From positions 1 through 44,921 of the forward strand of contig WTCE01000110.1 of NCBI GenBank assembly GCA_013138735.1: a DNA stretch of 44,921 nucleotides, written 5' to 3'. The stretch's first letter is position 1. Every line of letters starts with the position of its first letter. Origin of the DNA: Crocinitomix sp. GTDB taxonomy: Bacteria; Bacteroidota; Bacteroidia; Flavobacteriales_D; Crocinitomicaceae. A program made the position numbers and the translations under genes. Under the pieces are notes generated by a model. That model ran no database searches. It saw nothing but the letters and a program-made list of their open reading frames with translations, and had not been told where the DNA came from. This document shows positions 2,735-39,700 of the stretch, piece by piece.

Positions 2735-2768
2735 TGAAAAAAGAGCATTGGTTTTGACGCAATGCTCT
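2735..2768 (-). terminator. Intrinsic terminator of the ten-gene operon
   Basis: AGAGCATTG (2742-2750) and CAATGCTCT (2760-2768) form a perfect 9-base stem with a 9-base loop. On the minus strand it is followed by a run of six T. It lies 66 bases past the stop of the last operon gene (2834), the expected place for the end of the transcript. Confidence 0.85.
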
Positions 2769-2833: not shown

Positions 2834-3445
2834 CTATAGTTCTATTTGCACTGTGTCTCCTAATTTTGAAATAGTTCCTGGGTCAGGAATTTGATTCGTT
2901 ACCGCTCCTGATCCGGTATCCGTTAAAACTTCTACTTCTAAACCAAATTGATTCAATAACTCAGTAGCAGCTTCTAACGACAAGGTATCTAATGTTGGAA
3001 CAACACGAATATCTGCAATAGCTGCAGCTGGTGGAACCGGAACTATTTTGAATTTTAATTTTGTTGCCGCATTTACGTTCATGTTATACTTGTTTGTATT
3101 AGAAGCATTGAGTGGCGACACATATACCTTGGTAGCACCTACTACTTTTTTAGTCAAGCTTTGCAAGGGACCCGAAGTTGTTGGTGCCGTGCCAGATAAT
3201 GCTAATGATATAGTTGCTTCAACCTCAGTTTCAGGTAAGGCGTAAAAAGTGGGCTGATATCCAATATCTCTCAGTTGCGTCAATAACTCATCTCCACCTT
3301 CTGAATAGATTGCTAATGTTTGCGCTAATGAACCTGCGTCCAAAGCTGCTTGGGCATCTGCTACTCCCTCGCCAATTGATGAAATTAACTCTCCAAGTGG
3401 AGTAGCTAAAACATCTTTCATAAAATCCAACGAATTATTTGCCAT
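2834..3445 (-). CDS. Operon paralogue with C-terminal PASTA domain
   Basis: A 203-residue protein without signal peptide or membrane segment. It carries the cluster family's three motifs: helix 'IGEGVADAQAALDAGS' (about residues 23-38), 'IGYQPTFYALPETEVE' (about 61-76), and a degenerate third motif 'YNMNVNAATKLKFKIVPVPP' (about 118-137). Fused after this is one PASTA domain (about 147-203), recognised by VVPTLDTLSLEAATELL, the 'GAVTNQIPDPGT' turn and the ending 'LGDTVQIEL'. PASTA domains are known from penicillin-binding proteins and Ser/Thr kinases, where they lie outside the membrane and bind cell-wall material, so their presence on a leaderless protein is odd. Last gene of the operon, 11 bases after the preceding gene. 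Function unknown. Confidence 0.85.
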   Translation of the reverse strand: MANNSLDFMKDVLATPLGELISSIGEGVADAQAALDAGSLAQTLAIYSEGGDELLTQLRDIGYQPTFYALPETEVEATISLALSGTAPTTSGPLQSLTKKVVGATKVYVSPLNASNTNKYNMNVNAATKLKFKIVPVPPAAAIADIRVVPTLDTLSLEAATELLNQFGLEVEVLTDTGSGAVTNQIPDPGTISKLGDTVQIEL

Positions 3446-3456
3446 GGTTCCTTTTT

Positions 3457-4854
3457 TTAATTAAAATTTTCTGTGTCTTTTGCGAAGATGACCGTAATGG
3501 TATCTCCAACGTTCACTTCTTCACCAGCTCCTGGTGTCTGTTTAAATGCTTGTCCAATTGTCATAGTTGTAGATGCTTGATAAATTGGATTTAAAACTAA
3601 TCCGAAAGCAGTTAGTCGCTTTCGTGTTGCCGTTTCTGTTAATCCATTTACTTTTGGCATAATCAACTCTGTCGGTGGATTTTTAATTGGTTCTTGCGAT
3701 ATAATATCTAAGTGGACTTCGCTTATCGTGCCATCTTGCACATAATCTGCTCTTGCCGAATCAATGAGTTGGAGTTTGAATCCATCTCCATCATTTTTAA
3801 TATGTGTTTTAAGGTTCAAGGAGAGGTTAGATACAGCAAATCGTCCGCCAATAGATTCATCTGTAGCGGTTTCTAATTCACTTACGATAGCCTTGTAAAC
3901 TTCATTGGCTGGAGTTGCATCCCGTGTTAAAATATCGATTTTCTCTGCTTCTAAACGCTCTATGACAACTTTGCATTCAGCCACTTTTCCTTGTTCTATT
4001 TTAAGTGCTTCATTGATTTTTATACCGTTTGCTCTTTCAATTTCCAAAGCCTTTCCAAGTTCAATTATTTTGCCTTCGGCGGCTTCAAGAGTTTTTTTGA
4101 CTTCTAAAAGATTGAGTTTTTCAGCTTCCAAAGCTTTTGTCACTTCTAAGACTTTGTCTTTTTCGACACTTAGAGCATTTACAAGATCATCTACTTTCGC
4201 TCTTTCATCCACTAACTGCGCATCTCTAATTACAATGGTATCTAAAAGCTCTTTTATTTTAGCATCATTGGCTTCATATTCATCATCTTTTGGACGGACG
4301 AAAACTGTATGGCCATCCACGGTATATTCGAGTAATCGTTCTGTTTGATTTAAAGCTGCTTGTAATGCTGGGAAAAGCGGGTTATCTTTATTAGGTAGAG
4401 GCAGTGAGATCAAGTCGTATTCAAGGGGTGGGAAACGGCCTTTGATTTCTCGCTTAACATTAAAAGGCTCAATAAACCAGTTTGATCCATAATCAATTTC
4501 GATAACATTCTGTAAGCGAATCACTTGAAGATTTATGATTCCACCAAGCCCAATAACTTGTGCTGGTAAATCTGGATCTGGTGAAAGTAATGATACCCTT
4601 GTTGTTGGTAAATTACCACTTGCCAATGCCTGATAAATTGGAGCGAATGTTTCATTCGTTCTTATTTCATCCGATTTCAAATCTATTTCAGCACTATATT
4701 TACCTCGCGCTACCCTTGTCGAAGGAATGATAACTGTCCAAACCTTCTCAGCAACATTGAAGTATTCTATTTTAAGTTGTAAACCAGTGATATTTTTATC
4801 GCCTTTGTTTTTTAAGGCGCCTAAAAATTTTATGGTTGGGTCTATAATTTCCAT
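3457..4854 (-). CDS. Coiled-coil protein with C-terminal PASTA domain
   Basis: A 465-residue protein with no signal peptide. Residues 1-185 are a beta-rich domain I do not recognise. Residues about 190-312 are a long heptad coiled coil rich in L, E and K (for example LEAEKLNLLEVKKTLEAAEG). Residues about 320-390 form a second unrecognised domain containing 'FAVSNLSLNLKTHI', which recalls the middle strands of the neighbouring paralogues. Residues about 395-461 are a PASTA domain ('MPKVNGLTETATRKRLTAFG', then QTPGAGEEVNVGDTI). It is probably a structural, elongated subunit; the coiled coil suggests self-association. Starts 23 bases after the upstream gene of the same operon. Confidence 0.85.
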   Translation of the reverse strand: MEIIDPTIKFLGALKNKGDKNITGLQLKIEYFNVAEKVWTVIIPSTRVARGKYSAEIDLKSDEIRTNETFAPIYQALASGNLPTTRVSLLSPDPDLPAQVIGLGGIINLQVIRLQNVIEIDYGSNWFIEPFNVKREIKGRFPPLEYDLISLPLPNKDNPLFPALQAALNQTERLLEYTVDGHTVFVRPKDDEYEANDAKIKELLDTIVIRDAQLVDERAKVDDLVNALSVEKDKVLEVTKALEAEKLNLLEVKKTLEAAEGKIIELGKALEIERANGIKINEALKIEQGKVAECKVVIERLEAEKIDILTRDATPANEVYKAIVSELETATDESIGGRFAVSNLSLNLKTHIKNDGDGFKLQLIDSARADYVQDGTISEVHLDIISQEPIKNPPTELIMPKVNGLTETATRKRLTAFGLVLNPIYQASTTMTIGQAFKQTPGAGEEVNVGDTITVIFAKDTENFN

Positions 4855-4877
4855 TTTTTAATCAAATAATGCGTGAA

Positions 4878-5540
4878 TTAAAATTTACTTAAAGAGACTG
4901 ATTTATTTACGGTCCCGATATTAACAGCAAGAACATAAAATTGACCTGCATCAAATTCTGTTTTAGGAATGTTAACAGTCGTTTTCGCAATACCATCTAC
5001 ATCTGTGCTCACTTCAGCAATCGAGAATGTAGGTGCCGTAACTGCAGTTCCGCCGTTAATTTCCAATGAAGTTTCCTCATCAAAATTAAACTCGACGGTT
5101 GAACCGGGTAATTTTTCACCAACCGAATTTTTCACTTCTGCTTCTAATTCAATGTTATAAAATGTACCATCCAAAACAGGCTCCGCAGTTTTAACTTGAA
5201 TAATTGTTTGGGGTAAACCCTCGTTTGGTACAGTTGCCACAAACCTGCCCGTAACAGAACTATAGATCTCCGTTTTTGAAGTATTACTGCTCGTTAATTT
5301 GGCAGGTGAAAATTTTAAAACACTTCTGGTTTTATGATTATCATCTGTAACCGTTTGAAATTCTGAAGTAACCTGTAAACTAAAATCCAAATAAGGTACA
5401 TGGTAAATTGTATTGGGTCTTCCAAAAGAATCGTAAGGAGCAATGTCCCTTAAGTTTCGTTGTGCATCACTTAATCCATCCGCAATTCCTTCGAGGATGT
5501 CTTGTAATGCAAATGCTGTTATATCAGTTTGAGAACTCAT
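4878..5540 (-). CDS. Operon protein with AQ-helix and Ig-like domain
   Basis: A 220-residue leaderless protein. The N-terminal part (about residues 8-65) is a shortened version of the cluster family: 'ILEGIADGLSDAQRNL' corresponds to the GxAxAQxxLD helix and 'YHVPYLDFSLQVTSEF' to the PTFY strand. The second half (about 112-220) looks like a bacterial Ig-like domain of the invasin Big_1 type: 'AEVKNSVGEKLPGSTVEFNF' followed by STDVDGIAKTTVNI. Such domains are usually adhesive or structural and outside the cell. Three bases separate it from the upstream coiled-coil gene, implying translational coupling. Specific role unknown. Confidence 0.8.
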   Translation of the reverse strand: MSSQTDITAFALQDILEGIADGLSDAQRNLRDIAPYDSFGRPNTIYHVPYLDFSLQVTSEFQTVTDDNHKTRSVLKFSPAKLTSSNTSKTEIYSSVTGRFVATVPNEGLPQTIIQVKTAEPVLDGTFYNIELEAEVKNSVGEKLPGSTVEFNFDEETSLEINGGTAVTAPTFSIAEVSTDVDGIAKTTVNIPKTEFDAGQFYVLAVNIGTVNKSVSLSKF

Positions 5541-5543
5541 AAT

Positions 5544-6716
5544 TTAAAATCTCTCTTTTTTTTGTCGTTTTCGTTGTTCTTTTTTCGTTTCGCGTTTTTC
5601 TTCTTCTTTGCGCTCAGCATCTCTCTCTGCTTTTTGTTCTTCTTTGCGTTTGGCTTTGCGCTCTTCTTCCCGTTTTTCAGCCTTTTTTTTAGCTGAAAGT
5701 TGTTCTTTTAAAGCACTGCGTTTTTCATCTAATTCTTCCAATGTGTTTTTATTTACATTGAGTAATTTATCTCTTCGTGCCTCATACTTTGATTTGGCAC
5801 GATTGAGTTCTTTGTATTTGTTTTTTACTTTGTCCTTCGCTTTTGCCCACTTCTGATCTAGTTTTTCGCCGCCACGTTTTTTATTAAACGATTCGGTCAT
5901 CTTTTCCATTTTCTTACCCACCTTCGAATCTGTCAAAAAGCGATCTTTGACTTTAGAAATCTCACCTCTTAAATCTGGAACATCAGATGTATCACCGCCA
6001 CTTTCTGTACCAAATCGATCGAGATCTTTTTGGAGATTATCTATCGAATCGTTAAAACGAGAAACTTCTTTTTTTGCATTTTTAAATTTGCTTTCAAGTT
6101 TTTCTTTTTTCGCCAGCCAGTCGTCTTTCTTTTTTTTGACAGTTTTCACTTTTTTACTAAGCTTGTCAAAAGTTTCCTTTTTGCGCTTTAAACCACTTGG
6201 TACTTTTTCTTTGACTTTTTTCTCAAAGGTTTCTTGCTTTTCTTTCTTTTTGCCGCTGAATTCATCCTTCTTTTTAGTCAATTTTTCAGCGAATCGTGGC
6301 GTTGGAATCTCAGTCCCTAATGGTGTAGCGTTGCTACTATTTACAAGGCTAGAAAGACCAGTTGGAGCTTGGCGCTCATTTCCTTGACTTTTTTTCAAGG
6401 CTTCAAGTGCTTTTTTCCGATTGGCGTCCCATGCATTTATTTCCTTTTTCTTTTCAGAAATAGAAGGAATTTCTCCTAATTTTTCTTGAATTTGATTTCC
6501 AAAATTCCCAAAATCAGATTGCCCTGTCAATGCGCCCATTTTCTTTTCAAGCGCTTGCCGTTCAGTCATTAATTTTTTAAGCGTGCTATTTTGCTCTAAA
6601 GCCTCCTCTAATGGGTTTGCTTTAGACGCCTTTTCAAAAAATCCGTCATCTGCTAAAGGAGCCTTCTTTTTTTTCGGCTCCTTATCTGCAAATGTTTTCC
6701 AACTTTTAGCTTTCAT
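5544..6716 (-). CDS. Lysine/glutamate-rich coiled-coil protein
   Basis: A 390-residue protein of extreme composition: lysine and glutamate dominate, hydrophobic residues are sparse, and most of it is predicted helical or coiled coil. A less charged linker 'SSLVNSSNATPLGTEIPTPR' lies near residues 122-141. The C-terminal 60 residues are almost only K, R, E and A and end strongly basic. No enzyme or membrane motif is visible. Low complexity makes homology by eye unsafe, but the frame is fully open between tightly spaced operon genes (12 bases after one, 3 before the next), so it is a real gene. It might be a filament, scaffold or nucleic-acid-binding subunit. Confidence 0.8.
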   Translation of the reverse strand: MKAKSWKTFADKEPKKKKAPLADDGFFEKASKANPLEEALEQNSTLKKLMTERQALEKKMGALTGQSDFGNFGNQIQEKLGEIPSISEKKKEINAWDANRKKALEALKKSQGNERQAPTGLSSLVNSSNATPLGTEIPTPRFAEKLTKKKDEFSGKKKEKQETFEKKVKEKVPSGLKRKKETFDKLSKKVKTVKKKKDDWLAKKEKLESKFKNAKKEVSRFNDSIDNLQKDLDRFGTESGGDTSDVPDLRGEISKVKDRFLTDSKVGKKMEKMTESFNKKRGGEKLDQKWAKAKDKVKNKYKELNRAKSKYEARRDKLLNVNKNTLEELDEKRSALKEQLSAKKKAEKREEERKAKRKEEQKAERDAERKEEEKRETKKEQRKRQKKERF

Positions 6717-6728
6717 TAATCCTTAGTT

Positions 6729-7223
6729 CTAAATAGATGGTGGTGGTGGATTCAATACATCCAATTCACTTCTGATAAGTTCTTCTAAAATTGCTGGGGC
6801 AGGTACTGTCACTAGTTTAGTCCGCATAAGTGAACTTCCCTCAGCCGAGTATTGGTATTTTTGCGAGTAAGCTGCACCAACTGCTGCTGCTGATAAAAAA
6901 CCGACTTTCACATCAGCGGATACACCAGAATTGCTAGTTGAAGATCGCATACTAATTGCAATTTTTAACTCAATTACTGTATCTACAAATTGATAAAATG
7001 TTGGTGTAAATCCCAATCCCAATAAACTGAATTCAGTTCCTCCAGCTGTTAATTGGATTAATGCTGCGGGATCATTTGACCCGTCTTCTTTCAACCCTGC
7101 CATGAATTTTGTAATTTTCATGGAGACTTTGTCTAATTCAAACTGTGCTTCAGCAATACCAACCCCTAAACTTTTCACCATTTCTGGGAAAGGGGCATTC
7201 AATAATTCTTGTCCTATGGCCAT
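6729..7223 (-). CDS. Cluster-family paralogue, minimal form (164 aa)
   Basis: The simplest full copy of the repeated family. Motif 1, 'LGVGIAEAQFELDKVSMKI', lies at about residues 19-37; motif 2, 'LGLGFTPTFYQFVDTVIELK', at about 68-87; motif 3, 'YSAEGSSLMRTKLVTVPAPA', at about 124-143. The segment between motifs 2 and 3 is small-residue rich (S, A, G, V). No signal peptide. The plan (amphipathic N-terminal helix, central strands, serine/glycine-rich loop, C-terminal strand and helix) resembles DUF2589-type proteins, whose function is unknown; that link is my inference. Very close to the next gene upstream (7302-8126), which suggests recent duplication. Confidence 0.85.
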   Translation of the reverse strand: MAIGQELLNAPFPEMVKSLGVGIAEAQFELDKVSMKITKFMAGLKEDGSNDPAALIQLTAGGTEFSLLGLGFTPTFYQFVDTVIELKIAISMRSSTSNSGVSADVKVGFLSAAAVGAAYSQKYQYSAEGSSLMRTKLVTVPAPAILEELIRSELDVLNPPPPSI

Positions 7224-7259
7224 AATGTTATTCGTTTAATTGATAAATAATAAGAATTT

Positions 7260-7292
7260 AATCTGTGACGAAACAACGTTTCATCACAGATT
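7260..7292. other. Strong intra-operon hairpin
   Basis: AATCTGTGA (7260-7268) pairs with TCACAGATT (7284-7292), and after one mismatch GAAAC (7270-7274) pairs with GTTTC (7278-7282) around a 3-base loop. It fills the only large gap (78 bases) inside the operon, between two near-paralogues. On the minus strand a moderately T-rich stretch follows, so it may be an attenuator or an mRNA processing/stability element that sets different levels for upstream and downstream genes. Confidence 0.7.
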
Positions 7293-7301
7293 ACTATCAT
7301 T

Positions 7302-8126
7302 TTATACAACGACCACTGGAACAGGTGTTGGCTCAGTAATTTTTGACTCCTGTAATTGAAGACGAATTCTTTCTTCTAAGATAGCTGGTGGTGGAACAGG
7401 AGCTAATTTAGTACGTAATAAGCTAGATCCCTCAGCTGAATAACTGTACTTCGAAGCATAAGTAGCGTTCACTTGACTTGTAGTAATAGTTCTGTTCTTG
7501 TTCTTTTTACCTAATTTCCGTCTTCGTCTTCCTAATGTTTTCGTCTTAGTCACTGACTTTCCTCCACTACTCGAACTTCTAACTGTTGCAGCCTCTTGCG
7601 TAAAGCTGATGGCGATTCTAACTTCAATGATAGTATCAACGAATTGATAAAAAGTTGGGGTAAAGCCAAGTTCTAACATTGAAAGACGAACTGGAACCGA
7701 AATTAACGTATCGGCATTCGCAGCAGCCGCGAGCACAGCAATTGCGCCTGTCATTTGCAAGTCTGTAACACCCGAGTCGGTAATATCAGCAATTGCGGTA
7801 ATACCATCACTTTCTAAATAATCGAAACTGGTATTTAACATTTTTCCTGCTAGAATTCTTTTAAATCCTAAATCAGCTGAATTAAAAAGCGCGATTGAAG
7901 CATTGAAGGTAATTGATTCGTTACCAAAAAATACGCGACTATCTTCAAATGTAATATTTCCAGCGTCGTCTGTAATGGTGCTTAATCCCCCCATCATCTC
8001 GGCGACCTCTATCGAATTTTCATCTAATTTAATTTGTGCTTCCGCTATTGCGAATGCCATTTCTCTAATCATATCCCCCATAGGGACGTCTAGTAGTTGT
8101 TGACCAACTGAATCACTAATTGCCAT
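7302..8126 (-). CDS. Cluster-family paralogue with basic insert (274 aa)
   Basis: Motif 1 is 'MAFAIAEAQIKLDENSIEVA' (about residues 19-38), motif 2 'LELGFTPTFYQFVDTIIEVR' (about 150-169), motif 3 'YSAEGSSLLRTKLAPVPPPA' (about 227-246). Relative to the 164-residue neighbour it has about 90 extra residues between motifs 1 and 2, including a partial second 'ADLGFKRI' segment. Between motifs 2 and 3 it carries a strongly basic patch (TKTLGRRRRKLGKKNKNR, about residues 193-210), which could bind nucleic acid, acidic partners or membrane lipid. No signal peptide. Starts 31 bases after the preceding gene; followed by the strong hairpin at 7260-7292. Confidence 0.85.
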   Translation of the reverse strand: MAISDSVGQQLLDVPMGDMIREMAFAIAEAQIKLDENSIEVAEMMGGLSTITDDAGNITFEDSRVFFGNESITFNASIALFNSADLGFKRILAGKMLNTSFDYLESDGITAIADITDSGVTDLQMTGAIAVLAAAANADTLISVPVRLSMLELGFTPTFYQFVDTIIEVRIAISFTQEAATVRSSSSGGKSVTKTKTLGRRRRKLGKKNKNRTITTSQVNATYASKYSYSAEGSSLLRTKLAPVPPPAILEERIRLQLQESKITEPTPVPVVVV

Positions 8127-8157
8127 AATTGTTTTGTTTTAATGGTTAATGTTTTTT

Positions 8158-8607
8158 TTATAAATCTGCTATTTCTTTTAATAGTTCGCTTAATCTTTCT
8201 GGGGCTGGAAGCGAAACCAACCTAGCCGCAATAGAAGATGAACCTTCTGCTGACATTTCGAATTTTCTAGCGTATGAGGCGGAAACACTTACAGCCACAA
8301 TTCCGGCTTGTACACCTACCTCGGCGCCAATTGCAAAATCTTCCGACTCTGCTACAGAAAATTCTAATTTTGCCTCAACTGTTGCTTCTGTAAAAGCGTA
8401 AAACGTAGGAGCAAAACCTAAACTAATTAGGTTATAGTCTTCATTGTTTATGGTTACAGTTGTGGTTGCCATTTCCTGTGCCACCGCAATTGAATTTTTA
8501 TCTAAAGCAGACTGCGCTTTTGCGACAGCTAAACCTAGTTTTTCAATTAATAGGGGCAAAGGTGAGTTCACCAAGGAATTTACGACGTTCGATCCTGCTG
8601 TTGCCAT
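8158..8607 (-). CDS. Cluster-family paralogue, short form (149 aa)
   Basis: A compact copy of the family. Motif 1 'LGLAVAKAQSALDKNSIAVA' (about residues 24-43), motif 2 'ISLGFAPTFYAFTEATVEAK' (about 60-79), motif 3 'FEMSAEGSSSIAARLVSLPAP' is shifted slightly (about 115-135; only its core AEGSS and LPAP are conserved). The part between motifs 2 and 3 is acidic and then small-residue rich. No signal peptide or membrane helix. Only 3 bases after the OmpA-containing paralogue, so the two are probably translated together. Role unknown. Confidence 0.85.
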   Translation of the reverse strand: MATAGSNVVNSLVNSPLPLLIEKLGLAVAKAQSALDKNSIAVAQEMATTTVTINNEDYNLISLGFAPTFYAFTEATVEAKLEFSVAESEDFAIGAEVGVQAGIVAVSVSASYARKFEMSAEGSSSIAARLVSLPAPERLSELLKEIADL

Positions 8608-8610
8608 AAC

Positions 8611-10443
8611 TTATTGATTAAATGTGTCTTTTATTTGCTCCAAAAATTGACTTGGAGCTGGCATGGCTACTAATCGCGCTGCAATTCTTGCATTACCGGA
8701 AACGTCAATACTAAATTGGCGCGAAGTACGACCGTCAACTGAGATACCTACAGCTACTGTTGATGGATTATTAATTTTTTCCGAATCTTCTTTAATTCTA
8801 GTGCTTGTATTGCTCACATCATCCACGAGATAAACACTTTCAGTGTCTTCAAATGTTTCACTAGAATTATTCCCTATTGCTACCGTTGTGTTTTCTTGAG
8901 TATTGGTATAGGTAGTAAATCGAATGCTTGATTGATTATGCAATAAATAAGCAGTGTTTTCTACGACTTTAAAACTGAATGATTCTTTTGCAATTCTTAA
9001 AACATCTAAATCAGCAGCAAAATTACTCACTTCAGTCTCTAAAGAATAATTTACATTTCCTATGTCAAAAGAAAGCAAATAGGTGGTTTCAGTTACTGCA
9101 CCTGGTGAATCATATAGATGAATAAACCCAACATCATCCGTTGGTGATGAAATAATAATTGGTTCTGCTGATGCCACGGTAATTACTGGAGTTGCGCTAT
9201 TGACATAAAAATAGTCTGCACCTGATGTCAACTCAATTATTACTTTTCTATACAATAGATTTTTATTTTCATCAGGCGCTAAATCTTCACCCTTATTCTC
9301 AATTTCAATTTGACCTTTTGTAGCCCCCTCTGCAATAAACCATTTTCTCAAAGATTCTGCTCTTCTCTCTGATAGATCTTTGTTGTAACTAATTCCTCCA
9401 CTTCCATCTGTATGACCTGTAATAGTTATTGACATGGATGAGTCTCTACTGAGAATGTCAGCCAATACGCGGAGGGGTAGATCTATTATAGTATTGTCTA
9501 TCGTACTAGGCCCATCAGTATAAGAATTCTCTAATGCAATGCCAGCATCATCCTTATCAAAGTCAAAATATAATTCAATTGGTTGTGGACCACCAGTTTT
9601 AAGTTCATAAGTGCCAGCATCACTGTCAAAACCGATTATATCCCCAGAACCAACGAATCCATTGATTGTACTAAAAGTGGTTGGATAGTCAAGTGCAACC
9701 GCTGTACTGATGTCAAATGTAGCTGCGCCGCCATTATATTTAACAGTATCTAAGGTTGCATAATCTGCAATTTTAAGTATCGAGCAGTCAACTGTCGAAG
9801 GTTCTTGTGGCAGATTGATTACGATATAGCCGTCTAAATTTTGAACCGATTCATCAGCTGAAATACTCACATTAGATGCTTGGTATTTGGACGCGTCAAT
9901 TTCAGTCGAAACACGCTCAACTTGAGCATCTTGCCGAATTTCATTTTCAAATTTCTCAATTCGATCAATTGATCCTTCTGATTGATCCATTTTTACAGTT
10001 GTAGACTCAATTGTGATTTCCTCTGTATTTGAACTAGTAGTTACAAAAGCTCTTGAGCTTTTAAATTCTTTACGGTGGGCTTTGTTTCTATCTTTCCGTA
10101 AAAAATCAAGTTTTTCTTTGGAATAACCGCCTTGTTTGGTAAAGCCAATACTCAACTCGCCTCCGACTTCAAAACCTGTTGCCAAACGCATTTTTAATTC
10201 AATTTCTGCACTGATATCTGCAAATTGAAAGCTATAAAAAGCAGGTACAAATCCTAGCTCGAGTAAAGACTTCCCGCCAAACCCAGTCGCTGGATCAGCC
10301 AAAGCCAATGCCTGTTTAACTGAATTGTTATCTAATTGTTCTTGTGCCCGCGCAATTCCAATTCCCATATTGGAAATCATGTCGGTAATGTCGACTTGCT
10401 GGAGAATGTCTGCAGCAGATTTTAGCTTATCTATTTCGCTCAT
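8611..10443 (-). CDS. Cluster-family paralogue with nested OmpA domain (610 aa)
   Basis: The two ends match the small paralogues: motif 1 'MGIGIARAQEQLDNNSVKQA' (about residues 25-44), motif 2 'LELGFVPAFYSFQFADISAE' (about 60-79), and motif 3 'FSIDVSGNARIAARLVAMPAP' region at about 575-597. Between motifs 2 and 3 lies an insert of nearly 490 residues. It contains a complete OmpA-like peptidoglycan-binding domain (about 286-405): 'IELYFDFDKDDAG' strand, 'ITGHTDGSGGISYN', LSERRAESLRKWF. The Asp of GHTD and the Arg of LSERRA that contact peptidoglycan in this family are present. Despite this there is no signal peptide. It is 27 bases after the TPR gene and 3 before the next paralogue. Confidence 0.88.
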   Translation of the reverse strand: MSEIDKLKSAADILQQVDITDMISNMGIGIARAQEQLDNNSVKQALALADPATGFGGKSLLELGFVPAFYSFQFADISAEIELKMRLATGFEVGGELSIGFTKQGGYSKEKLDFLRKDRNKAHRKEFKSSRAFVTTSSNTEEITIESTTVKMDQSEGSIDRIEKFENEIRQDAQVERVSTEIDASKYQASNVSISADESVQNLDGYIVINLPQEPSTVDCSILKIADYATLDTVKYNGGAATFDISTAVALDYPTTFSTINGFVGSGDIIGFDSDAGTYELKTGGPQPIELYFDFDKDDAGIALENSYTDGPSTIDNTIIDLPLRVLADILSRDSSMSITITGHTDGSGGISYNKDLSERRAESLRKWFIAEGATKGQIEIENKGEDLAPDENKNLLYRKVIIELTSGADYFYVNSATPVITVASAEPIIISSPTDDVGFIHLYDSPGAVTETTYLLSFDIGNVNYSLETEVSNFAADLDVLRIAKESFSFKVVENTAYLLHNQSSIRFTTYTNTQENTTVAIGNNSSETFEDTESVYLVDDVSNTSTRIKEDSEKINNPSTVAVGISVDGRTSRQFSIDVSGNARIAARLVAMPAPSQFLEQIKDTFNQ

Positions 10444-10470
10444 TGTTTATAATTTTTGGATTAATAAATA

Positions 10471-11022
10471 TTATATTGGTAATACTACTTTCGGCAATTT
10501 AATGGCCATTTCTGGCTTTATATTCTCTTTAGTAACCGTAAAGTATTTGTGTTTTTTTTGTGAGGCTACAATTTGTTGCTTTGAAACGGTATAGCCTCTT
10601 TGCAACCAGTTTAACAGTTCATCCGTCAAGGGTTGTTTTCCCCTACCAATGGCATCTTGTGCTTTTTTGAAGAGTGTAACTGCTTCCGTTTTGTCTTCCT
10701 TTAAAAGATATTGAACCGCTTTTTTTTCTACTGCTACGGCGTAATTTTTTTTGATAATATCAGCCTTGTCAACATTGTCTTCTAACAAAGCTATGGCTTT
10801 GTCGCAATAGGCAATTACTTCGTCATGTGCACCAGATAATTCAAGTGATTCCATTACACATTGCGTATAATGTTGGAAAAAAACTTGGTCGGCATTCTCT
10901 TTTGTAGCCATTCTTATTCCTTCGCGATAGTGCCGCAAGGCTTCAGTATGGTCTCCTTTTAAACTGTAGATTTTTCCATTTTCTACAATTCCTAAATGCA
11001 TGAATTTATTTTTTTTGCTCAT
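10471..11022 (-). CDS. TPR-repeat protein
   Basis: A 183-residue helical protein with about three TPR-like units: residues 9-43 ('GKIYSLKGDHTEALRHYREG'), 44-83 and 95-130 ('AVQYLLKEDKTEAVTLFKKA'). The last 50 residues are basic and end in a hydrophobic tail. TPRs bind protein partners, so an adaptor or assembly-chaperone role for the other operon products is reasonable but inferred. The start codon shares one base with the stop of the upstream gene (TAATG on the minus strand), so translation is coupled. Confidence 0.8.
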   Translation of the reverse strand: MSKKNKFMHLGIVENGKIYSLKGDHTEALRHYREGIRMATKENADQVFFQHYTQCVMESLELSGAHDEVIAYCDKAIALLEDNVDKADIIKKNYAVAVEKKAVQYLLKEDKTEAVTLFKKAQDAIGRGKQPLTDELLNWLQRGYTVSKQQIVASQKKHKYFTVTKENIKPEMAIKLPKVVLPI

Positions 11023-12131
11023 TATTTTATGTAATAATCGTAATCAACTGTGCATCCTGCTTCTTCTAATTCGTCAGCAATACATCTGTAAAGTAAATCG
11101 CCTAATGGTTTGGGAAATTCCCAGGGAGATTCCTTATTCGGGAGTTCTTCGGCTGAGAGGTATTGTGCTAAAACGGTTTTGGATTCTTGCAAATCACCCA
11201 TTTCGGCAATGATTAATTTATAGTTGTTAGGTTTAATAACATGTGCTGTGCAATTTAAACCTGCCGCACTATATAATTTTAGTTTATCAGCAACGGTTTT
11301 TCCATTAGCAGAAGCTTCTAATTGAATTGGCAAGTTTGCAATGACGTTGTCAATAATTTCAGCAGGCATTCCCGTTTCTTCCATCAAAACTGATCGAAAA
11401 TTTTCGTTCGATTCATCCACTTTTACCAAATTAATTTCAAAGCGCTGAAAACTCTGATTGATCATTTTAAGTAAACCGGTGGATTGAAACTTTTTCCAAA
11501 GATCTTGTGCCGTTTTATAATCCAAATTACTAATGCGATTGTTTGCATCCGCGTCAACATCTAACTTCAAATATTTTAAATGACTTTGTAGTTTATGTAA
11601 GAGCATTTTGTTGTCATTATTGTCTCCAAAAAAAACCGTGTATAAATCTTTTTTTGGTGCACTAATAATAACCTCAGTATCTAAACGGTCGCACAAAGCT
11701 TGTGCTGTTGATTCTGACACATTACCAAGAACCACACATGGGTCGCTTGTCAATAAATTGAAGGCCTCTTGCAATCCGCAACCTAAAAATTCGCTTAATT
11801 TTTTTGCAACTACAGGTACATATTCAATGTCATGAATATAGACGCCTACGTCAACAGGGTCTTGCTTTTCGGGTAATGGATCAGTTGATGGTTGGATCCT
11901 AGAAACCATTCCAAGTGTGTTCAATAATTCATTACATTGCTCGGCTAAAGCGCCGTCAATATTTGTAAATAATACGGTTGGTGTATTGTACAATGCTTGT
12001 ACAATTAACTCGACTGGAGTGCCTAATACGTCTGACAACATTTTGGATGCTGATGGGTTTGCCGATCCGATAGAATCGATAATTACGTGGTAGGTATTTC
12101 CGTCGATATTTTGGGTATCGTTTGTATTCAA
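11022..12131 (-). CDS. Tandem ribosomal L7/L12 C-terminal-like domain protein
   Basis: A 369-residue protein made of about five diverged copies of a fold like the C-terminal domain of ribosomal protein L7/L12. Clear copies start near residue 14 ('YHVIIDSIGSANPSASKML' ... ALAEQCNELLNTLG), 96 ('VGVYIHDIEYVPVVAKKLSE' ... AQALCDRLDTEVII), 228 ('FEINLVKVDESNENFRSVL') and 297 (YKLIIAEMGDLQESKTVL); the copy near 163 is degenerate and the last has an insert. The N-terminal dimerisation domain of real L7/L12 is missing, so this is not the ribosomal stalk protein. First gene of the operon, hence possibly its organiser. No TAnnTTTG box was found upstream. Function unknown. Confidence 0.8.
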   Translation of the reverse strand: MNTNDTQNIDGNTYHVIIDSIGSANPSASKMLSDVLGTPVELIVQALYNTPTVLFTNIDGALAEQCNELLNTLGMVSRIQPSTDPLPEKQDPVDVGVYIHDIEYVPVVAKKLSEFLGCGLQEAFNLLTSDPCVVLGNVSESTAQALCDRLDTEVIISAPKKDLYTVFFGDNNDNKMLLHKLQSHLKYLKLDVDADANNRISNLDYKTAQDLWKKFQSTGLLKMINQSFQRFEINLVKVDESNENFRSVLMEETGMPAEIIDNVIANLPIQLEASANGKTVADKLKLYSAAGLNCTAHVIKPNNYKLIIAEMGDLQESKTVLAQYLSAEELPNKESPWEFPKPLGDLLYRCIADELEEAGCTVDYDYYIK

Positions 12132-28767: not shown

Positions 28768-29961
28768 CTATTGAAAATCTTCTAGACCAACTTTGTATTT
28801 ACGATAAATTCCTTTTTCAAAAATTTTAATGAACCACCACTGCTTTTTAATTTCTTGGCTTGGACAATAGCCCCTATTACTTTTGTTACTTATATTTTCA
28901 ATGGATTGCCGCTCCATAATTAAAGTGTCGCCTTCTGTTGTTCTGGCAAGTATTGAAATCATAGGATCTGGACAGCATAAAAGGTCTATCTTAATTTTTC
29001 GGTCCCGTTTGTTTTTCGGGACATTCCCAAAAATAAAAAACTGACAGTCACAGCTAATCGTCGCATAGTCTAATTCAACACCGCGCTTCGATTTAATTTT
29101 TACTTTGATTAATAATTCAGGTGGAATTCCCTTATCCATATTAATAGTGCTCATGCCTGAAAGTGGGACTTCATAATAATAACGATCGTTAATTTGAACT
29201 TCTTTAATCGTTTCGTCGCTCACTATTTCCCAGGCACCACCTTCACCGAGTTCATATAAATTCATGCCAAAAGTTGAACATGCGGCATTTAAAGGAATGT
29301 ATGCTATAACTTCAATCCCTTCGCAAATATCATATTCAATCATTCCACCCGAAACCAACGAAGCACCACTTGATGTTACTGTTTCAAAACCCCTTTCTTC
29401 TGCACTAGCAGGATCTAAAAATTCTGAAATATTCACACAATTTGGATTAGCTTCAAACGCACATTTATTGATTTTGTAAATGGTGCCAGCAGGTAAAACA
29501 ATCATAGTGTCTGCTGAGCAATCTGGCAGTTTTATGCTTTCTTTTATTGCTAAAATTTTTATTGGTTTGTTGTAGAGAACAGTAATCTCAACACGTCTGT
29601 TGCGCTGCATTCCTTCTGCATTTGAGTTGGTAGATGCTGGTTTGGATTCGCCGAAGAAATCACGGGCAATTAATTTGTCAGCTACATTTTTATTCAATAG
29701 GAAGGATGCGATAGTTTTTACCCTGTTTTGCGATAAAAGGAGATTATAAGCATTACTTGCATCATTGTCTGTGTGGCCAGCAAGTTTAATTTGCGTTACA
29801 TCCCAAGTTTCAATTGAATCCAATAGCAGGTTTAATTTAAGCTTTTCTTCATTGCTAATAATGTATTCGTCCTTGTCAAAGTTGATGTTTAATTGGAATG
29901 TTTCTTGCCCAAATAATGGGCAATTAAGCAAAAGGAGCAGTAAGGGAATTAACTTTTTCAT
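28768..29961 (-). CDS. OmpA-family envelope protein
   Basis: About 397 residues from the ATG at 29961, which opens a normal signal peptide ('MKKLIPLLLLLLNCPLFGQE'); a start at 29991 would add ten polar residues before it. Residues about 22-130 are an OmpA-like peptidoglycan-binding domain: 'NINFDKDEYIISNEEKLKLN', LAGHTDNDASNAYN and 'NRRVEITVLYNKP'. Unusually it lies at the N-terminus, just after the signal, not at the C-terminus. The rest contains 'GTIYKINKCAF' and TSSGASLVSGGMIEYD, a diverged version of the module in the lipoprotein at 201-1622, then a cysteine-containing tail. It probably tethers the envelope to the cell wall. Confidence 0.85.
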   Translation of the reverse strand: MKKLIPLLLLLLNCPLFGQETFQLNINFDKDEYIISNEEKLKLNLLLDSIETWDVTQIKLAGHTDNDASNAYNLLLSQNRVKTIASFLLNKNVADKLIARDFFGESKPASTNSNAEGMQRNRRVEITVLYNKPIKILAIKESIKLPDCSADTMIVLPAGTIYKINKCAFEANPNCVNISEFLDPASAEERGFETVTSSGASLVSGGMIEYDICEGIEVIAYIPLNAACSTFGMNLYELGEGGAWEIVSDETIKEVQINDRYYYEVPLSGMSTINMDKGIPPELLIKVKIKSKRGVELDYATISCDCQFFIFGNVPKNKRDRKIKIDLLCCPDPMISILARTTEGDTLIMERQSIENISNKSNRGYCPSQEIKKQWWFIKIFEKGIYRKYKVGLEDFQ

Positions 29962-30023
29962 TTCATAAGGTTGATGTTCAAATGATTCCAAAAGTAACCG
30001 AAATAGATAAAGGACGCTTGAAT

Positions 30024-31795: not shown

Positions 31796-33145
31796 ATGCA
31801 AAATCAAGACTATAATAAATTAAAAGGTTTAGCCAAGTACATTAATCAATTGATCGATACAGGTAAATGGACAGCATTGGGTGAAAATCGTCAAAACACA
31901 TTAAGAAATGCACTCAATAAATTAGCTGCTCGTGTACAAAGGTTTGTTGCAAAACGAAAATTGACACGAGTGCTTGGAGCGGCAGTAATGTTGCTTTCGG
32001 TTAATGCCAGTGCACAATCTTTTGCAGATCCGGTTGAGGGTGCCTTTGGGCTGGCAGGCGTAAGCTATTTAACCAAACCAGAATTTGTTGACATAGATGG
32101 TGACGGAGATTTAGATTTTTTTCAAACTAATTATGACGCGGAGGGCTTTCTTTTTCAGGAAAATATAGGAACTGCAGAAGAACCTGATTTTTCCGAATTG
32201 GAAATAAATCCTTTCGGTTTATCTCCGGCAGCAGGTCTATTAATGCCAGTTTTTGGTGATTTAGACAATGATGGCGACTTTGATATTTTAGCGAGTACTT
32301 ACGAGGAAGGCGGCGCACTTTATTTCGAAAATACAGGAACTGCGACCGATCCAGCTTTTGGTGCAGGGGTAGCTATACCATTTGGAATTACAGCTGGTTA
32401 TATCATAATGGACGATTTAGTTGATATTGATGATGATGGTGATTTGGATCTATTTGTTTCTAAATATGATGATGTTACTTCAGAAGGAAAAGTTTTCTTT
32501 TTAGAAAATACAGGAACACCAGAAGCTGCAGCTTTTGCGAGCGGAGTTGTAGATGCTTTCGGAATGACCTTTTCTGGTGCCGATTATTTTACGTTTGTAG
32601 ATTTTGCCGATTTTGATGATGATGGCGATTACGATTTTATGCGGACAGATATGTATGGTAAAATTGTTTATTATCATGAAAATGTGGGAGAAGCTGATGC
32701 GCCAGATTTTGATGCAGGAAGTGGATTAATTTCTCCATTCGATATTGACGCGCTTACTGGGGGAGATCAATACTTTTTTGCATTATCATTAGCTGATATT
32801 GATGCGGATGGTGATTTCGATTTATTTATATCTGAGTATTCTAGCGAAGGAACTTATTTCTACGAAAACAGAACAATTGTTGTGAGTATTCCTGACGCAA
32901 TTGAATGGAATGATGAAATTGCCCTTTTCCCTAATCCGGCTGTAGACAATATCACTATCCAAACAGCATTAACGAGTGAAGCTATTCAGTCCATCCGGAT
33001 TATTACGATTGATGGACGAGAAGTTTATCAAAACACACAACTTGTAAATACAATTAGCGTAGCAGATTTTGAAACGGGAATCTATTTATTAGAAGTTACC
33101 AATAATGAAGGGCAGCAAATGATGTTGAAATTTATTAAAGAGTAG
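31796..33145 (+). CDS. FG-GAP-like repeat T9SS protein, five repeats
   Basis: A 449-residue surface protein. It begins with an unusual extension of about 55 polar, basic residues ('YNKLKGLAKYINQLIDTGKW' onwards) before a normal hydrophobic signal core (LTRVLGAAVMLLSVNASAQS, cleavage near residue 75). Five repeats follow (about 95-365), each with a calcium-binding motif of the form DxDxDGDxD, for example 'FVDIDGDGDLDFFQTN' and 'ADIDADGDFDLFISEYS', and an ending like ENTGT. The C-terminus (about 375-449) is a T9SS type A sorting domain ('ALFPNPAVDNITIQ' ... MMLKFIKE). Probably an adhesin or surface polysaccharide/ligand binder. Follows cysC and the TIGR03032 gene in one unit. Confidence 0.93.
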   Translation: MQNQDYNKLKGLAKYINQLIDTGKWTALGENRQNTLRNALNKLAARVQRFVAKRKLTRVLGAAVMLLSVNASAQSFADPVEGAFGLAGVSYLTKPEFVDIDGDGDLDFFQTNYDAEGFLFQENIGTAEEPDFSELEINPFGLSPAAGLLMPVFGDLDNDGDFDILASTYEEGGALYFENTGTATDPAFGAGVAIPFGITAGYIIMDDLVDIDDDGDLDLFVSKYDDVTSEGKVFFLENTGTPEAAAFASGVVDAFGMTFSGADYFTFVDFADFDDDGDYDFMRTDMYGKIVYYHENVGEADAPDFDAGSGLISPFDIDALTGGDQYFFALSLADIDADGDFDLFISEYSSEGTYFYENRTIVVSIPDAIEWNDEIALFPNPAVDNITIQTALTSEAIQSIRIITIDGREVYQNTQLVNTISVADFETGIYLLEVTNNEGQQMMLKFIKE

Positions 33146-33455
33146 CGGTTTACGATTTTCTGATGTTAAGAACGTATAAAATTGTTCTTACTGCTAAAGT
33201 TTATTTCGTTTCAAGATCAAGCAAAAAAATGCGCCTATGTTTATACTTTTTGTATAACCCAAGGTTCTATTTACGACATCCGTTCTCAAAATTTTTTCTT
33301 AAATCCGCAAAAGCAAAGGCGTTGAACGCTTAATAATCTCAAGTGCTGCTTTTTGATTTCGAATTGTAATTGTATATTTAGCAACTAAGGTTATTGGAGG
33401 GAGATTTAAATATCACTCATTTGGGACTGAAATTAATGACAACTAAAGCGGAACA
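33146..33455 (+). other. Region between the two FG-GAP genes
   Basis: No gene is seen in these 310 bases. Directly after the first gene is a perfect hairpin, TAAGAAC (33167-33173) with GTTCTTA (33184-33190), perhaps a weak terminator. A promoter for the second gene lies at 33352-33381. Confidence 0.6.
33352..33381 (+). promoter_or_regulatory. Promoter of second FG-GAP gene
   Basis: TTTG (33352-33355), a 17-base spacer and TATATTTAG (33373-33381) fit the Bacteroidota consensus apart from the last base. The leader would be about 68 bases to the GTG start at 33456. Confidence 0.6.
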
Positions 33456-34451
33456 GTGCAACATAATAATTATAAAAAATTAAAAGGTTTAGCGGGATAC
33501 ATCAATCAACTGATCAAGTCAGGAGAATGGAGAGTGTTGAGCAAGGTGCAGAAAGACTCATTAAAAAGTGCTCTAAAAAGATTGGTGAACAGTGTTCGAC
33601 AATTTATTGGAAAGCAGCGTTTAGTGACAACTTTAGGAGCAGCAATAATGCTTATTTCAGTAAATGCTAATGCGCAAAGCTTTGCTGACCCTGTAATGAA
33701 TCCTTTTAGCATGGGAACAGAGGGCTATTATTATACGAAGCATCAATTGGTCGATTTGGACGGAGATGGTGATTTAGACTTGTTTTATAGCAATCCGGAT
33801 GACGAAGTATTCTACTATCAAGAAAATACGGGAACTGCAACAGCTCCTGCTTTCGCGGATGCCATTTCAAACCCTTTCGGTTTGGCACCAACTTATCCGC
33901 TATACACGCCTATTTTAGCTGATTTAGATAATGACGGTGATCTTGACTTTATTCGTACTGAAAATTATGGTTTTTCGGTTTATTTTCATGAAAATACCGG
34001 AGATTCAGAATCACCTGTATTTAGTGGTGGAGATGGTGTCGTTTCGCCCTTTGGCATTGATCCTTTAGGCGCAGAAGAATATTTTGTTGCCCCAACTTTG
34101 GCGGATATTGATGGAGATGGAGACTATGATTTGTTCATCTCTGAGCCCTATGGCAATACGTATTTCTATGAAAATAGAGCGATAGTTGCTAGTATACCTG
34201 ATGCAGCTGAATGGACAGATGAAATTATTCTTTTCCCCAACCCAGCGGTTGATAATATCACGATCCAAACAGCTTTGACGAATGAGGCTATTCAGTCCAT
34301 CCGCATTACAACAGTTGATGGACGACAAGTGTATCAAACTTCACAATTGGTAAATACTATCAACGTATCAGATTTTGAAACGGGGATTTACTTGTTAGAA
34401 GTTACGAATAATGATGGGCAGCAATTATTGCTGAAATTCGTTAAAGAGTAG
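33456..34451 (+). CDS. FG-GAP-like repeat T9SS protein, three repeats
   Basis: A 331-residue paralogue of the preceding gene. It must start at GTG 33456: an in-frame TAA lies at 33444-33446, and the aligned first codon of the neighbour is ATG. The same polar N-terminal extension ('YKKLKGLAGYINQLIKSGEW') precedes the signal core (TTLGAAIMLISVNANAQS). Only three repeats with 'VDLDGDGDLDLFYS', 'ADLDNDGDLDFIRT' and 'ADIDGDGDYDLFIS' are present, against five in the neighbour, which accounts for the size difference. The C-terminal sorting domain ('ILFPNPAVDNITIQTALTNE') is nearly identical. A tandem duplication followed by repeat gain or loss. Confidence 0.92.
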   Translation: MQHNNYKKLKGLAGYINQLIKSGEWRVLSKVQKDSLKSALKRLVNSVRQFIGKQRLVTTLGAAIMLISVNANAQSFADPVMNPFSMGTEGYYYTKHQLVDLDGDGDLDLFYSNPDDEVFYYQENTGTATAPAFADAISNPFGLAPTYPLYTPILADLDNDGDLDFIRTENYGFSVYFHENTGDSESPVFSGGDGVVSPFGIDPLGAEEYFVAPTLADIDGDGDYDLFISEPYGNTYFYENRAIVASIPDAAEWTDEIILFPNPAVDNITIQTALTNEAIQSIRITTVDGRQVYQTSQLVNTINVSDFETGIYLLEVTNNDGQQLLLKFVKE

Positions 34452-36718: not shown

Positions 36719-39700
36719 TTACATGATTTTTCCACCATTCTCCCCGCTTCCTGGTCCTAATCGAATTTGCTTGTGAGCAATTGAGATTAGGGTAGGGTGG
36801 TGCTCAATAAAAACAACAGCATGCCCTTGTTCAATTAGCTTGTCAAAAATGGTGATTAAACGCAATAAATCCAATTGATGTAAACCATTGCTTGGCTCAT
36901 CAAAAAGGTAGAGTGTTTTTCGTTTGGGATTTGTTAATGCCGTTGCGAGTTTTAGTCGTTGTGCTTCACCGCCTGATAAGCTATTTCCGCCTTGTCCTAA
37001 TTGTAAATGGCCAATTCCTAAATCAATTAATTGCTGTAATCTTAGATTCAGTTTTTCATTTTGGAAAAGGTTAATGACTTCCGCGGCGCTTAATTGTAAT
37101 AGGTCGCCAATGGAATGCAGGATACCATTTTGTCCTTCAAATTTAACGGCGTTAACTTCAGGGTTATATCGGCTTCCTTCACAGGTTTCACATTGGACCC
37201 AAATATCGCTCATGAAATCCATGCTCGTTTTAATCTCGCCATAACCTTTGCAGGCCTCGCACTTTCCTATTTTGGATTGATAGGAAAAGTCTGCTTTTTT
37301 AAATGGCAAAGCTTCACTTTTTGCAATACCAGCAAATTCAGCTTGCAATAAATCTAAAAACCCAACTATTGTAGCGGGACAGCTCAATGCATTAATCGCA
37401 ATTGGATTTTGGTCGATTAATAGTATTGCATCAAAAATCTCGAATCCGAATATTTTGTCACAACCAATGGCCCTTTTTTTAGTGACTGATGCATAAATAA
37501 CATCCTTAATTAAGGAGGATTTCCCACTACCAGAAACACCTGTTACGGCCGTTATTCGGCTGGATTCAAAAGTGACATCAATTCCCTTTAAATTATTTTT
37601 AGAAGCCCCTTTTACTCCGAATACTGATGCAGGGCTTTTGCTTTCATTTCGATTGAATGAAACAGCCTCAAAAAGTAGTTTGTTCGTAATCGTTTCAGGG
37701 TGGTTTTGAATAGCGCTTGTTGCACCTTGATAAACAATTTCACCACCATTTTTACCAGATTCCGGACCCATTTCAATTAAATAGTCGGACGCTGAAATAA
37801 AAGATTTATCATGCTCAATTACAACCACCGTATTTCCTTTTTTGGTGAGTTGGCGCAAGAGATCAATTAATACGTTTACTTGATCCTGATCCAGACCAAT
37901 AGTAGGTTCATCTAAAACGTAAGTTACGCCAAATAGATTCGCAGAAAGTTGTCCTGCCAATCGAATCCGTTGAATTTCTCCGCCGGACAAACTACCAGAC
38001 ATTCTATCCATGGTTAAATAATCCAAACCAAGTGCCATTATAGTCTCCATTTGTTGGCTTACGGGAGGTAAAACCAATTTTAAAATGGCATTAATTGCCT
38101 TGTTCGTTTGTTTTATTTGAAGGAGAGTAAAGGCAGCTTTAATGCTCATTTTGCACAATTCTGCCATGTTTTTTCCAGCGAATTTTATATCCAATAAATT
38201 GGCTTGGAGTCTGTCTCCCTTGCATATTTCACAGGGCACATCATGCAATAATTCTAAAACAGATTGGATGTTTTTATTGTCTCGGTGGCGTTCATATTCA
38301 TCATTGATATAATGATAGAACCCTAACCATTTTGTGTTTAATTCTTGCGTGCCACTTCTGGTTTTTGTTTTAAACGCCCAATTGACTTGCCATGCTGTCT
38401 CGCCCGTTCCATACAAAATAACGTTCTTAATTTCAGCTGAGAGATCCTGCCATGGGTGTAAAAGATTCCATTTTTTTTGCGTTGCAATTGTTTTCAATGT
38501 GGCTATAAATTGCCCTTGTGGATTGGTGAAATATTGGGCTGTTTTATTTGCATTTAAAGCTCCCTCAAAAATTGTTTTTTCTGGATCAAGAATGAGGATG
38601 TCAGGATCACATTTTTTTTCAATCCCATGTCCTTTACATTGCGGACAAGCGCCCAATTTATGATTAAACGAAAAGTGTTGGGCCGTATATTCATGACCTT
38701 CCAATTGTGCAATACGCGAATATAATAGGCGCAAGTGGTCATGAATTCCTGTGACAGTCGCTACTGTTGATCGATTAGAATTATTCCCTCTTTTACGTTG
38801 AATGGCAATAGTTGGTGTCAATCCACTTGCTTGTTCAATTTCAGCACGATTTTGTGACTGAATTAAACTGCGGTTATAAGTCGATAATGATTCTGAAAAC
38901 CGTGCATTGGCTTCGGCAAACAAACTATCGTAAACCAATGAAGATTTTCCACTACCCGAAATTCCAGTTACAGCGGTAAGTTTGTTTTTTGGAAAAACGG
39001 CGTTCACGTTTTTGAGTTGATGCGTAGTTACACCATTCAATCGAATAAATTTTTGGGCATCAATGGCTTGAGCGACCAAGGCTTTGTTGTCTAATACTTT
39101 TGGAGCATAATGTTGCCGTTCAAGCAAAGGTTTCAATTCAATGATGTGTGCTGCATGATTTAAAATAAGTTCATCTTGCTCAATACAAACAATGGTGTTT
39201 CCATCTGAAGTAATGTCCGTAAATAAGTCTAGTAAATTATCCAAATCAAAAGGATGCAAACCAATGCTAGGCTCGTCTAAAATATAAAGCGTTTTTCCTG
39301 TCGATTTTTTCTGTAATTCATTGGCTAACTTAATCCGTTGCGCTTCGCCACCTGATAAAGTGGTTGCCGATTGTCCCAATGTTAAATAACCCAAGCCAAT
39401 TTTTTGTAAAGTCCTTAAACCTTTCAAAATTTTATTATTCTCCTGAAAGAAGGTACAAGCGGCATTAACTGTTAGGGCGTAAACCTCTGATATTGTCTTG
39501 CCCTTATATTGAACAGCAAGTGATGCTGCATTAAATCTCTTGCCCTGACAGGTGCCACAAATTAAGTCCACCTGACCTAAGAAATGCATTCCAATTTGTG
39601 TTTTACCAGCGCCCAAACACGTTTCACATCTGCCACCTTTAGTATTGAATGAAAAACTCGATTTTGTCAATTTTTTGGCCTTAGATTCAGGTAGTTTCGA

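Follow-up and report, generated by a model that had tools for sequence, protein, structure and literature searches.

The stretch of DNA analysed here, hereafter the window, is the 44,921 nucleotides (positions 1 to 44,921, forward strand) of contig WTCE01000110.1 from Crocinitomix sp. (assembly GCA_013138735.1; Crocinitomicaceae, Bacteroidota), whose genome measures 6.8 Mb and is 97.5% complete. The list of open reading frames (ORFs) revealed an operon of ten tightly packed ORFs, designated A to J in the order of transcription, which runs from position 12131 to position 2834 of the window entirely on the minus strand. The features of the operon, in the order of transcription, are the following.

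11022..12131, minus strand: gene A, tandem array of about five units like the C-terminal domain of ribosomal L7/L12, 369 aa, TTG start as listed (profile against 1ctf)
10471..11022, minus strand: gene B, TPR protein, 183 aa, overlapping A by 1 base (Pfam TPR_1, E-value 1.6e-7; gene order)
8611..10443, minus strand: gene C, core split by a long insert with an OmpA-type domain at residues 324-391 of 610 (Pfam OmpA, E-value 9.6e-12)
8158..8607, minus strand: gene D, minimal core paralogue, 149 aa (alignment; structure model)
7302..8126, minus strand: gene E, core paralogue of 274 aa in which an insert separates helix and strands (alignments; hhalign E/F 8e-64)
7224..7301, minus strand: gap between E and F, whose transcript holds a 16-bp stem-loop at 7293-7259 (fold z -4.2; also in a generic terminator-type scan)
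6729..7223, minus strand: gene F, core paralogue, 164 aa (alignments; hhalign D/F 7.5e-48)
5544..6716, minus strand: gene G, lysine-rich coiled-coil protein, 390 aa (translation; position)
4878..5540, minus strand: gene H, probable diverged N-terminal core plus C-terminal Ig-like domain, 220 aa (hhalign, AlphaFold2, Foldseek)
3457..4854, minus strand: gene I, N-terminal beta-type domain (by reading), long coiled coil, small domain and C-terminal PASTA, 465 aa (Pfam PASTA, E-value 1.6e-8; alignment)
2834..3445, minus strand: gene J, core paralogue of 203 aa that ends in a PASTA domain (Pfam PASTA; hhalign D/J 9e-23)
2735..2768, minus strand: intrinsic terminator of the operon, stem GAGCAUUG/CAAUGCUC followed by a U run (folding)

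The ORF coordinates reproduced the ten minus-strand genes that had been described in an earlier reading of the bare sequence (the original prediction), with intergenic gaps ranging from -1 (the overlap of A and B) to 78 bases (between E and F). Among the relatives described below, the gaps between adjacent pairs have medians of -4 to 27 bases. Folding of the transcript from 2833 to 2725 gave a z-score of -6.0 for two stems together, the last of which is the stem GAGCAUUG/CAAUGCUC with a U run at about 2768-2735. This agrees with the terminator expected at 2735-2768, although a generic consensus scan missed it; the terminator-like sites returned by that scan were no more numerous than in shuffled sequences.

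To survey the conservation of the operon, species genomes were scanned for its motifs, which led to 125 confirmed relatives, and 80 loci picked by the motifs of D, E and F were taken from them. The results showed that all ten genes stand in order on one strand in 42 of the 56 loci of at least 20 kb (the match plus about 10 kb on each side), a set made up of 54 loci from the scan, L032, and the window, which is counted here though it ends 2.8 kb past J; the profiles of G and I used for the order calls were partly seeded by position, and the presence of these two genes is therefore less independent. Four loci, L029, L030, L031 and L033, were dropped from the order counts as duplicates or fragments. 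Exactly ABCDEFGHIJ is read in 40 of the 56 loci, and the window and L098 hold the ten genes with one extra match, namely a distant OmpA protein (28768-29991) in the window and a weak I after J in L098. As labelled in their records, the 42 complete loci comprise 20 from Bacteroidota, 19 from Pseudomonadota (one of them probably mislabelled), one from Myxococcota, the window, and L032 of the same family as the window. In the remaining 14 loci, between one and three calls are missing, another core call takes the place of C (L109 and L112), or the cluster is partial (L095, CDEF only); among these loci are near-complete forms from Gemmatimonadota (L109), Balneolota (L113) and Latescibacterota (L096, cut by the contig end). 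The complete order was also found in 9 of the 26 loci shorter than 20 kb. The gene order is kept across phyla beyond chance. The original prediction had looked to synteny across Bacteroidota for its support, and to a lack of the cluster in other genomes for its refutation; the cluster is conserved, and its conservation reaches beyond Bacteroidota to Pseudomonadota and Myxococcota. To our knowledge, it is uncommon for a block of ten genes to hold its order in several phyla outside a named machine.

The system is rare within the genomes surveyed. D-like matches were found in 4 of 395 Bacteroidota genomes, the query genome included, three of the four in one genus, in which the one genome examined (L132) holds only the four-gene form discussed below. 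Among 299 Pseudomonadota genomes the single D-like match was the centre genome itself, and among 59 relatives D-like proteins were detected in five and A in four. Only one plasmid relative was found, the four-gene form, and no relative of I was found in plasmids. Six families were concatenated for a tree of 71 loci, built with a quick method. It is arranged mostly phylum-wise, so that the cluster is probably an old system with some transfer, and the window lies closest to a Crocinitomix metagenome-assembled genome; no weight was placed on single transfers, as the tree program issued warnings about long branches being joined and about uneven composition. In one record, CP034120.1 (L110, titled Glaciecola amylolytica), the cluster and several flanking genes match the Fluviicola loci L108 and L111 as well as L032, and this row, which falls inside Fluviicola, is probably a mislabelled genome.

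Clustering of 783 unassigned ORFs of 82 loci showed that the flanking genes are mostly not common to the loci. A fixed flanking gene that would reveal the function was sought among these ORFs and rejected, the clusters present in at least four loci being G or I at their regular positions, regulators, housekeeping genes and the neighbours of near relatives. Of the 82 loci, 13 have a member of a response-regulator family one to six genes from the cluster, directly next to it in 3 of them, and 7 have one of a sensor-kinase family within six genes; both are common families.

The alignments of relatives cover 49 of the 73 A proteins called, 48 of 73 C, 71 of 84 D, 60 and 70 of 77 H, and 42 of 73 J. 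Alignments and hhalign comparisons confirmed for C, D, E, F and J the proposed group of at least five paralogues sharing three ordered motifs. The hhalign values among D, E, F and J range from 2.6e-21 to 8e-64, and the alignment of D contains 15 invariant columns. The first 125 residues of H matched J at 1e-9 and the pooled core profile, which itself contains J, at 5.5e-8 over the whole length, and D, E and F taken singly matched H over short stretches only (0.0003 to 0.0065). The N-terminal part of H is thus probably a sixth, diverged copy of the core, as judged from these profile comparisons. The core is decorated at three sites, namely the helix-strand loop (the insert of E), the beta part (the OmpA domain of C) and the C-terminus (PASTA in J and the Ig-like domain in H). 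In Pfam, neither D, E and F nor the core regions of H and J gave more than weak matches below the cut-off. The model of D shows a long helix followed by long beta strands, and with a predicted local distance difference test score (pLDDT) of 60 it is weak and was used for the outline only. The AlphaFold2 model of H (pLDDT 81.5) likewise starts with a long helix followed by long strands, and its C-terminal part, modelled at a pLDDT of about 96, matched Ig folds in Foldseek (E-value 2.2e-4, TM score about 0.3), which bears out the Ig-like protein foreseen for the operon. On the placement of the paralogues in unrelated folds, which the original prediction had named as refuting, the shared outline of the two models gives a loose guide, given the weakness of the D model.

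Then, the wall-binding domains were examined in the relatives. The OmpA domain was detected in 47 of the 48 C proteins scanned, and within it Asp346 is kept in 45 of 48, and Asn354 and Arg361 in all 48. The corresponding Asp and Arg of the Acinetobacter OmpA are described as contacting diaminopimelate (PMC5974059), and in our own alignment Asp346 and Arg361 of C appear to correspond to these residues. By both its domain match and these two residues, the insert of C belongs to the OmpA family. C thus resembles OmpA and Pal in carrying the peptidoglycan-binding domain with its contact residues, and differs from them in that the domain is inserted within another domain and that no lipoprotein or beta-barrel anchor was seen. 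The periplasmic location typical of OmpA was not indicated by hydropathy, as neither a signal-like N-terminus nor a membrane-like stretch was found in 76 C proteins. As the original prediction had it, I and J are both PASTA proteins, scoring 34.8 and 31.2 bits in the window against a Pfam cut-off of 23.2 (J with an E-value of 2.2e-7). PASTA was present in all 40 I proteins scanned, which were chosen from 49 called and 22 candidate ORFs, and in 36 of the 42 J proteins scanned. The C-termini of I and J share this family with the PknB-type kinases, and the profile of J matches PknB PASTA structures; unlike in these kinases, no kinase or transmembrane part was found in I and J.

Hydropathy analysis of 663 assigned proteins, a set that includes just 10 G proteins, found a signal-like N-terminus in one (an H) and membrane-like stretches in six (five A and one H). 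The predicted absence of signal peptides and membrane helices therefore extends to nearly all proteins of the relatives, the signal-like H and the six membrane-like stretches being the exceptions. The central puzzle of the system is that it has conserved wall-binding domains and yet no export signal.

One way to answer this puzzle is a cytoplasmic sensor or scaffold, in which OmpA and PASTA would capture muropeptides or wall precursors within the cell, allowing the complex to report damage to the wall or its turnover. The scarcity of signal-like N-termini (one in 663), the kept diaminopimelate-contacting residues, the lack of a recognised export gene among the ten, and the response regulators and sensor kinases near the cluster all speak for this proposal. 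However, most loci lack those regulators, whose families are common ones; none of the ten proteins has a kinase, regulator or effector domain above the cut-off, and the PknB-type match in I is confined to its PASTA part. We regard a sensor of this kind as quite unlikely.

Window A scored 19 bits against the Pfam L7/L12 family, below the cut-off of 25.9, and the Pfam match was found in 15 of the 49 A proteins; the A profile built from these 49 proteins matched 1ctf with an E-value of 1e-5. In comparisons of unit against unit, five of the ten pairs gave values from 7e-12 to 3e-5 and the other five from 2e-4 to 9e-3, compared with 0.055 to 0.22 for the control profile B. These results suggest that A comprises about five L7/L12-like units. 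The tandem L7/L12-like protein of the original prediction accordingly stands as a clear likeness at the profile level, sub-threshold in Pfam, and with about five units in place of two. The units of A resemble the C-terminal domain of the ribosomal protein; A differs from it in having about five units per chain, and a match to the N-terminal part of L7/L12 was not seen. The predicted TPR protein was recovered as B by the TPR_1 match. At the position of G, between F and H, most relatives contain an ORF. A tentative connection between Trypco2 and the small domain of I was dropped: just 1 of 13 cluster genomes has the family, and Trypco2 was listed neither for the four-gene forms at an E-value of 0.5 nor among the 25 of 45 families listed for I. 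The accessible part of the paper naming Trypco2 does not mention DUF2589 (PMC7159879).

The coiled coils of G and I, the adaptor-type A and B and the missing export signal would also suit an internal structural body (storage, compartment or cytoskeletal) in which the wall-binding-like domains serve protein contacts. Such a body would leave unexplained why the peptidoglycan-contact residues of OmpA are fixed across phyla, and we consider it unlikely.

No enzyme match above a curated cut-off of Pfam or NCBIfam was found among the ten window proteins, just as had been claimed for the operon. The sub-threshold or partial matches in the PHROGs, NCBIfam and PADLOC scans included a homing-endonuclease model to part of C (4e-4), and these databases otherwise matched the OmpA, PASTA and coil parts. 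No PADLOC anti-phage system was found, only partial matches with a best E-value of 3.8e-5, which fall in parts of C for ZorB and HEase, in the PASTA part of I for PD-T4-6 and in the coil of G for LmuB, and a defence system as such was rejected on this ground.

A match to a known phage or secretion structure, which would have spoken against the original prediction, was also looked for, and none was found. The operon might be a remnant or relative of a phage tail, a tailocin or a contractile injection system, an idea prompted by analogy, as homologous structural proteins in one operon together with wall-binding domains recall baseplates, and by a match of J to a PHROG tail protein at chance level (E-value 0.038). 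No other structural PHROG was matched, the significant PHROG matches covering the OmpA part, and no sheath, tube, baseplate spike or AAA+ gene was recognised among the ten by Pfam, PHROGs or NCBIfam. Likewise, no relative was found in viral contigs (alignment query A2) or in phage records (query D), and the weak D model matched no viral structure below an E-value of 0.001. With no supporting match in PHROGs, viral contigs, phage records or structures, a phage or injection-system origin was rejected, and we hold it to be highly improbable. The best viral-structure match of the D model was the BFVD entry A0A516MP19 (E-value 0.027, probability 0.89).

The original prediction had also noted that the plan of the paralogues recalls DUF2589 (PF11655). 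No protein of the window and none in genome G000 passed the Pfam cut-off of this family, and one of the 71 D proteins matched it at an E-value of 0.13. With a DUF2589 profile built from up to 30 sequences, 184 of 219 core sequences scored at least 5 bits, against 18 of 219 reversed, none of 219 shuffled and 1 of 402 flanking sequences; the 219 sequences are mutually related, and the 184 matches are hence not independent findings. At 10 bits or more, the same profile found 65 core sequences and no reversed, shuffled or flanking ones. In the opposite direction, the D profile found 8 DUF2589 proteins and 2 reversed ones, and the F profile found 9 and none; hhalign aligned corresponding parts of D and DUF2589 over 138 columns (P 7e-4). 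The long-form DUF2589 profile alone found 82 core sequences against 39 reversed. No solved structure related by sequence to DUF2589 or D was found. By reading, DUF2589 proteins show the same order as the core, that is a helix, a hydrophobic strand of the LVP or LGF type and a C-terminal P-x-x-L stretch; their genes often occur as two or more neighbouring paralogues, single genes occurring too, and one DUF2589 protein (L122) has a C-terminal extension read as Ig-like, as in H. As a difference, A-, B- or G-like genes were not noticed in the DUF2589 loci read through, for which no dedicated search was made. These comparisons point to a probable, distant kinship of the core with DUF2589, short of membership in that family. 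The hint of the original prediction is thus upheld by part of the profile tests, namely that of the profile from up to 30 sequences and those of D and F, and not by the Pfam cut-off or by the profiles of J, the pooled core and H, which did not clearly separate real from reversed sequences.

Several smaller sets of genes bear on the system. The neighbours of DUF2589 genes include, a few genes away, wall enzymes (a GH25 protein in L122, 4052-9156, and an N-acetylmuramidase in L134, 6116-10398), a C58-type peptidase and a jacalin lectin in L123 (5881-10341), and HlyD with a peptidase-domain ABC transporter in Vibrio sp. 16 (L153, 936-7123), and they suggest a role at or beyond the wall. Together with these neighbours, the DUF2589 genes form an uncharacterised set of their own. 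A region related to DUF2589, AF0414-AF0417, is described in Archaeoglobus (PMC3949148). The four-gene form, found on a Sphaerotilus plasmid (L126) and in genome G173 (L132), shares core paralogues with the ten-gene operon; its four genes, which encode two cores, a third, short protein and a coiled-coil protein, stand in one order in both places. The core proteins were called by search in L132, and in L126 one by search and the second by reading. It differs from the operon in that OmpA and PASTA were unmatched in its eight proteins, and A or B was not noticed alongside, no dedicated search having been made. The four-gene set may be a minimal form of the system.

The neighbours of the DUF2589 genes, together with the patchy and rare distribution of the cluster, speak for the possibility that the products form a released antibacterial or interaction particle, a carrier that would dock on the walls of targets within a biological-conflict system. 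Against it, no toxin or lytic enzyme was recognised among the ten genes or constantly adjoining them, and PADLOC gave no system, only partial matches such as that of ZorB to the OmpA part. We consider such a particle rather unlikely.

The explanation that we tentatively prefer, while placing it a little short of an even chance, is that the operon encodes a multi-subunit assembly that docks on peptidoglycan. In this model, the ten products would form one protein assembly, in which the core strands of C, D, E, F, J and H may pair between subunits to build a ring or fibre, and the OmpA and PASTA domains, whose identity is established along with the conserved contact residues of OmpA, would anchor it on diaminopimelate-type peptidoglycan. 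A with its L7/L12-like repeats and the TPR protein B, which are encoded first, could serve as adaptors or as chaperones of the assembly process, while G and I, as coiled coils, could space or tether its parts. Because the products carry no signal peptides, the assembly would be built in the cytoplasm and would reach the wall after lysis or by some other export route. A more specific version, which we hold more loosely and put clearly below an even chance, is a hetero-oligomeric particle or fibre of six DUF2589-like subunits, built in the cytoplasm with A and the TPR protein and placed on the cell's own or foreign peptidoglycan through OmpA and PASTA, using no known secretion route, with the two- to four-gene DUF2589-type sets as its stripped-down relatives.

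Several observations weigh against the docking assembly and its tie to DUF2589. Wall-binding domains without an export signal amount to a contradiction, which an assembly placed on the wall merely postpones, and PASTA and OmpA folds can serve other roles. The model of D, poor at a pLDDT of 60, found its best PDB match at an E-value of 5.9. By hhalign, the resemblance to DUF2589 is weak and varies among the core proteins, with values of 7e-4 for D, 1.2e-3 for the pooled core, 1.5e-3 to 0.05 for F, 0.016 to 0.09 for protein E and 0.007 to 0.17 for J, against reversed decoys at 2.2e-3 (J) and 2.8e-3 (protein E); moreover, the profiles of J, the pooled core and H show no clear difference between real DUF2589 proteins and their reversed counterparts. 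DUF2589 was found in just 6 of the 49 cluster-bearing genomes searched, and it was rejected as an obligate partner on this count. Finally, both the large assembly and the Sec-independent export of the original prediction are inferences.

The E-F gap is of interest for the expression of the operon. A strong stem-loop is found in the E-F gap of L034 as well (11407-11476, z -4.7), and the gaps of L035, L032, L108, L110 and L111 fold into stems that differ in sequence from that of the window; folding of relatives covered 25 of 79 gaps (those of at least 35 bases) and was done without shuffles. In many other loci the gap is short or folds weakly. The stem-loop may be a kept RNA element that sets the ratios of the subunits.

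Outside the operon, two further features of the window were recorded from the translations. On the minus strand, 36719-41506 encodes a 1595-aa protein that we take to be two UvrA-like chains fused end to end. At 31796-34451, two neighbouring plus-strand genes encode proteins with very similar N- and C-terminal regions, presumably with VCBS/FG-GAP-like repeats.

We know of no named system with this ten-gene plan, and no description of the cluster was found in the literature searched, which left out subscription papers and preprints. It combines six paralogues and conserved wall-binding domains with no recognised enzyme and no export signal. The system is directly testable in cultured strains, and its elucidation would probably uncover a new assembly and place DUF2589, a family of no known function, in a structural and functional setting.

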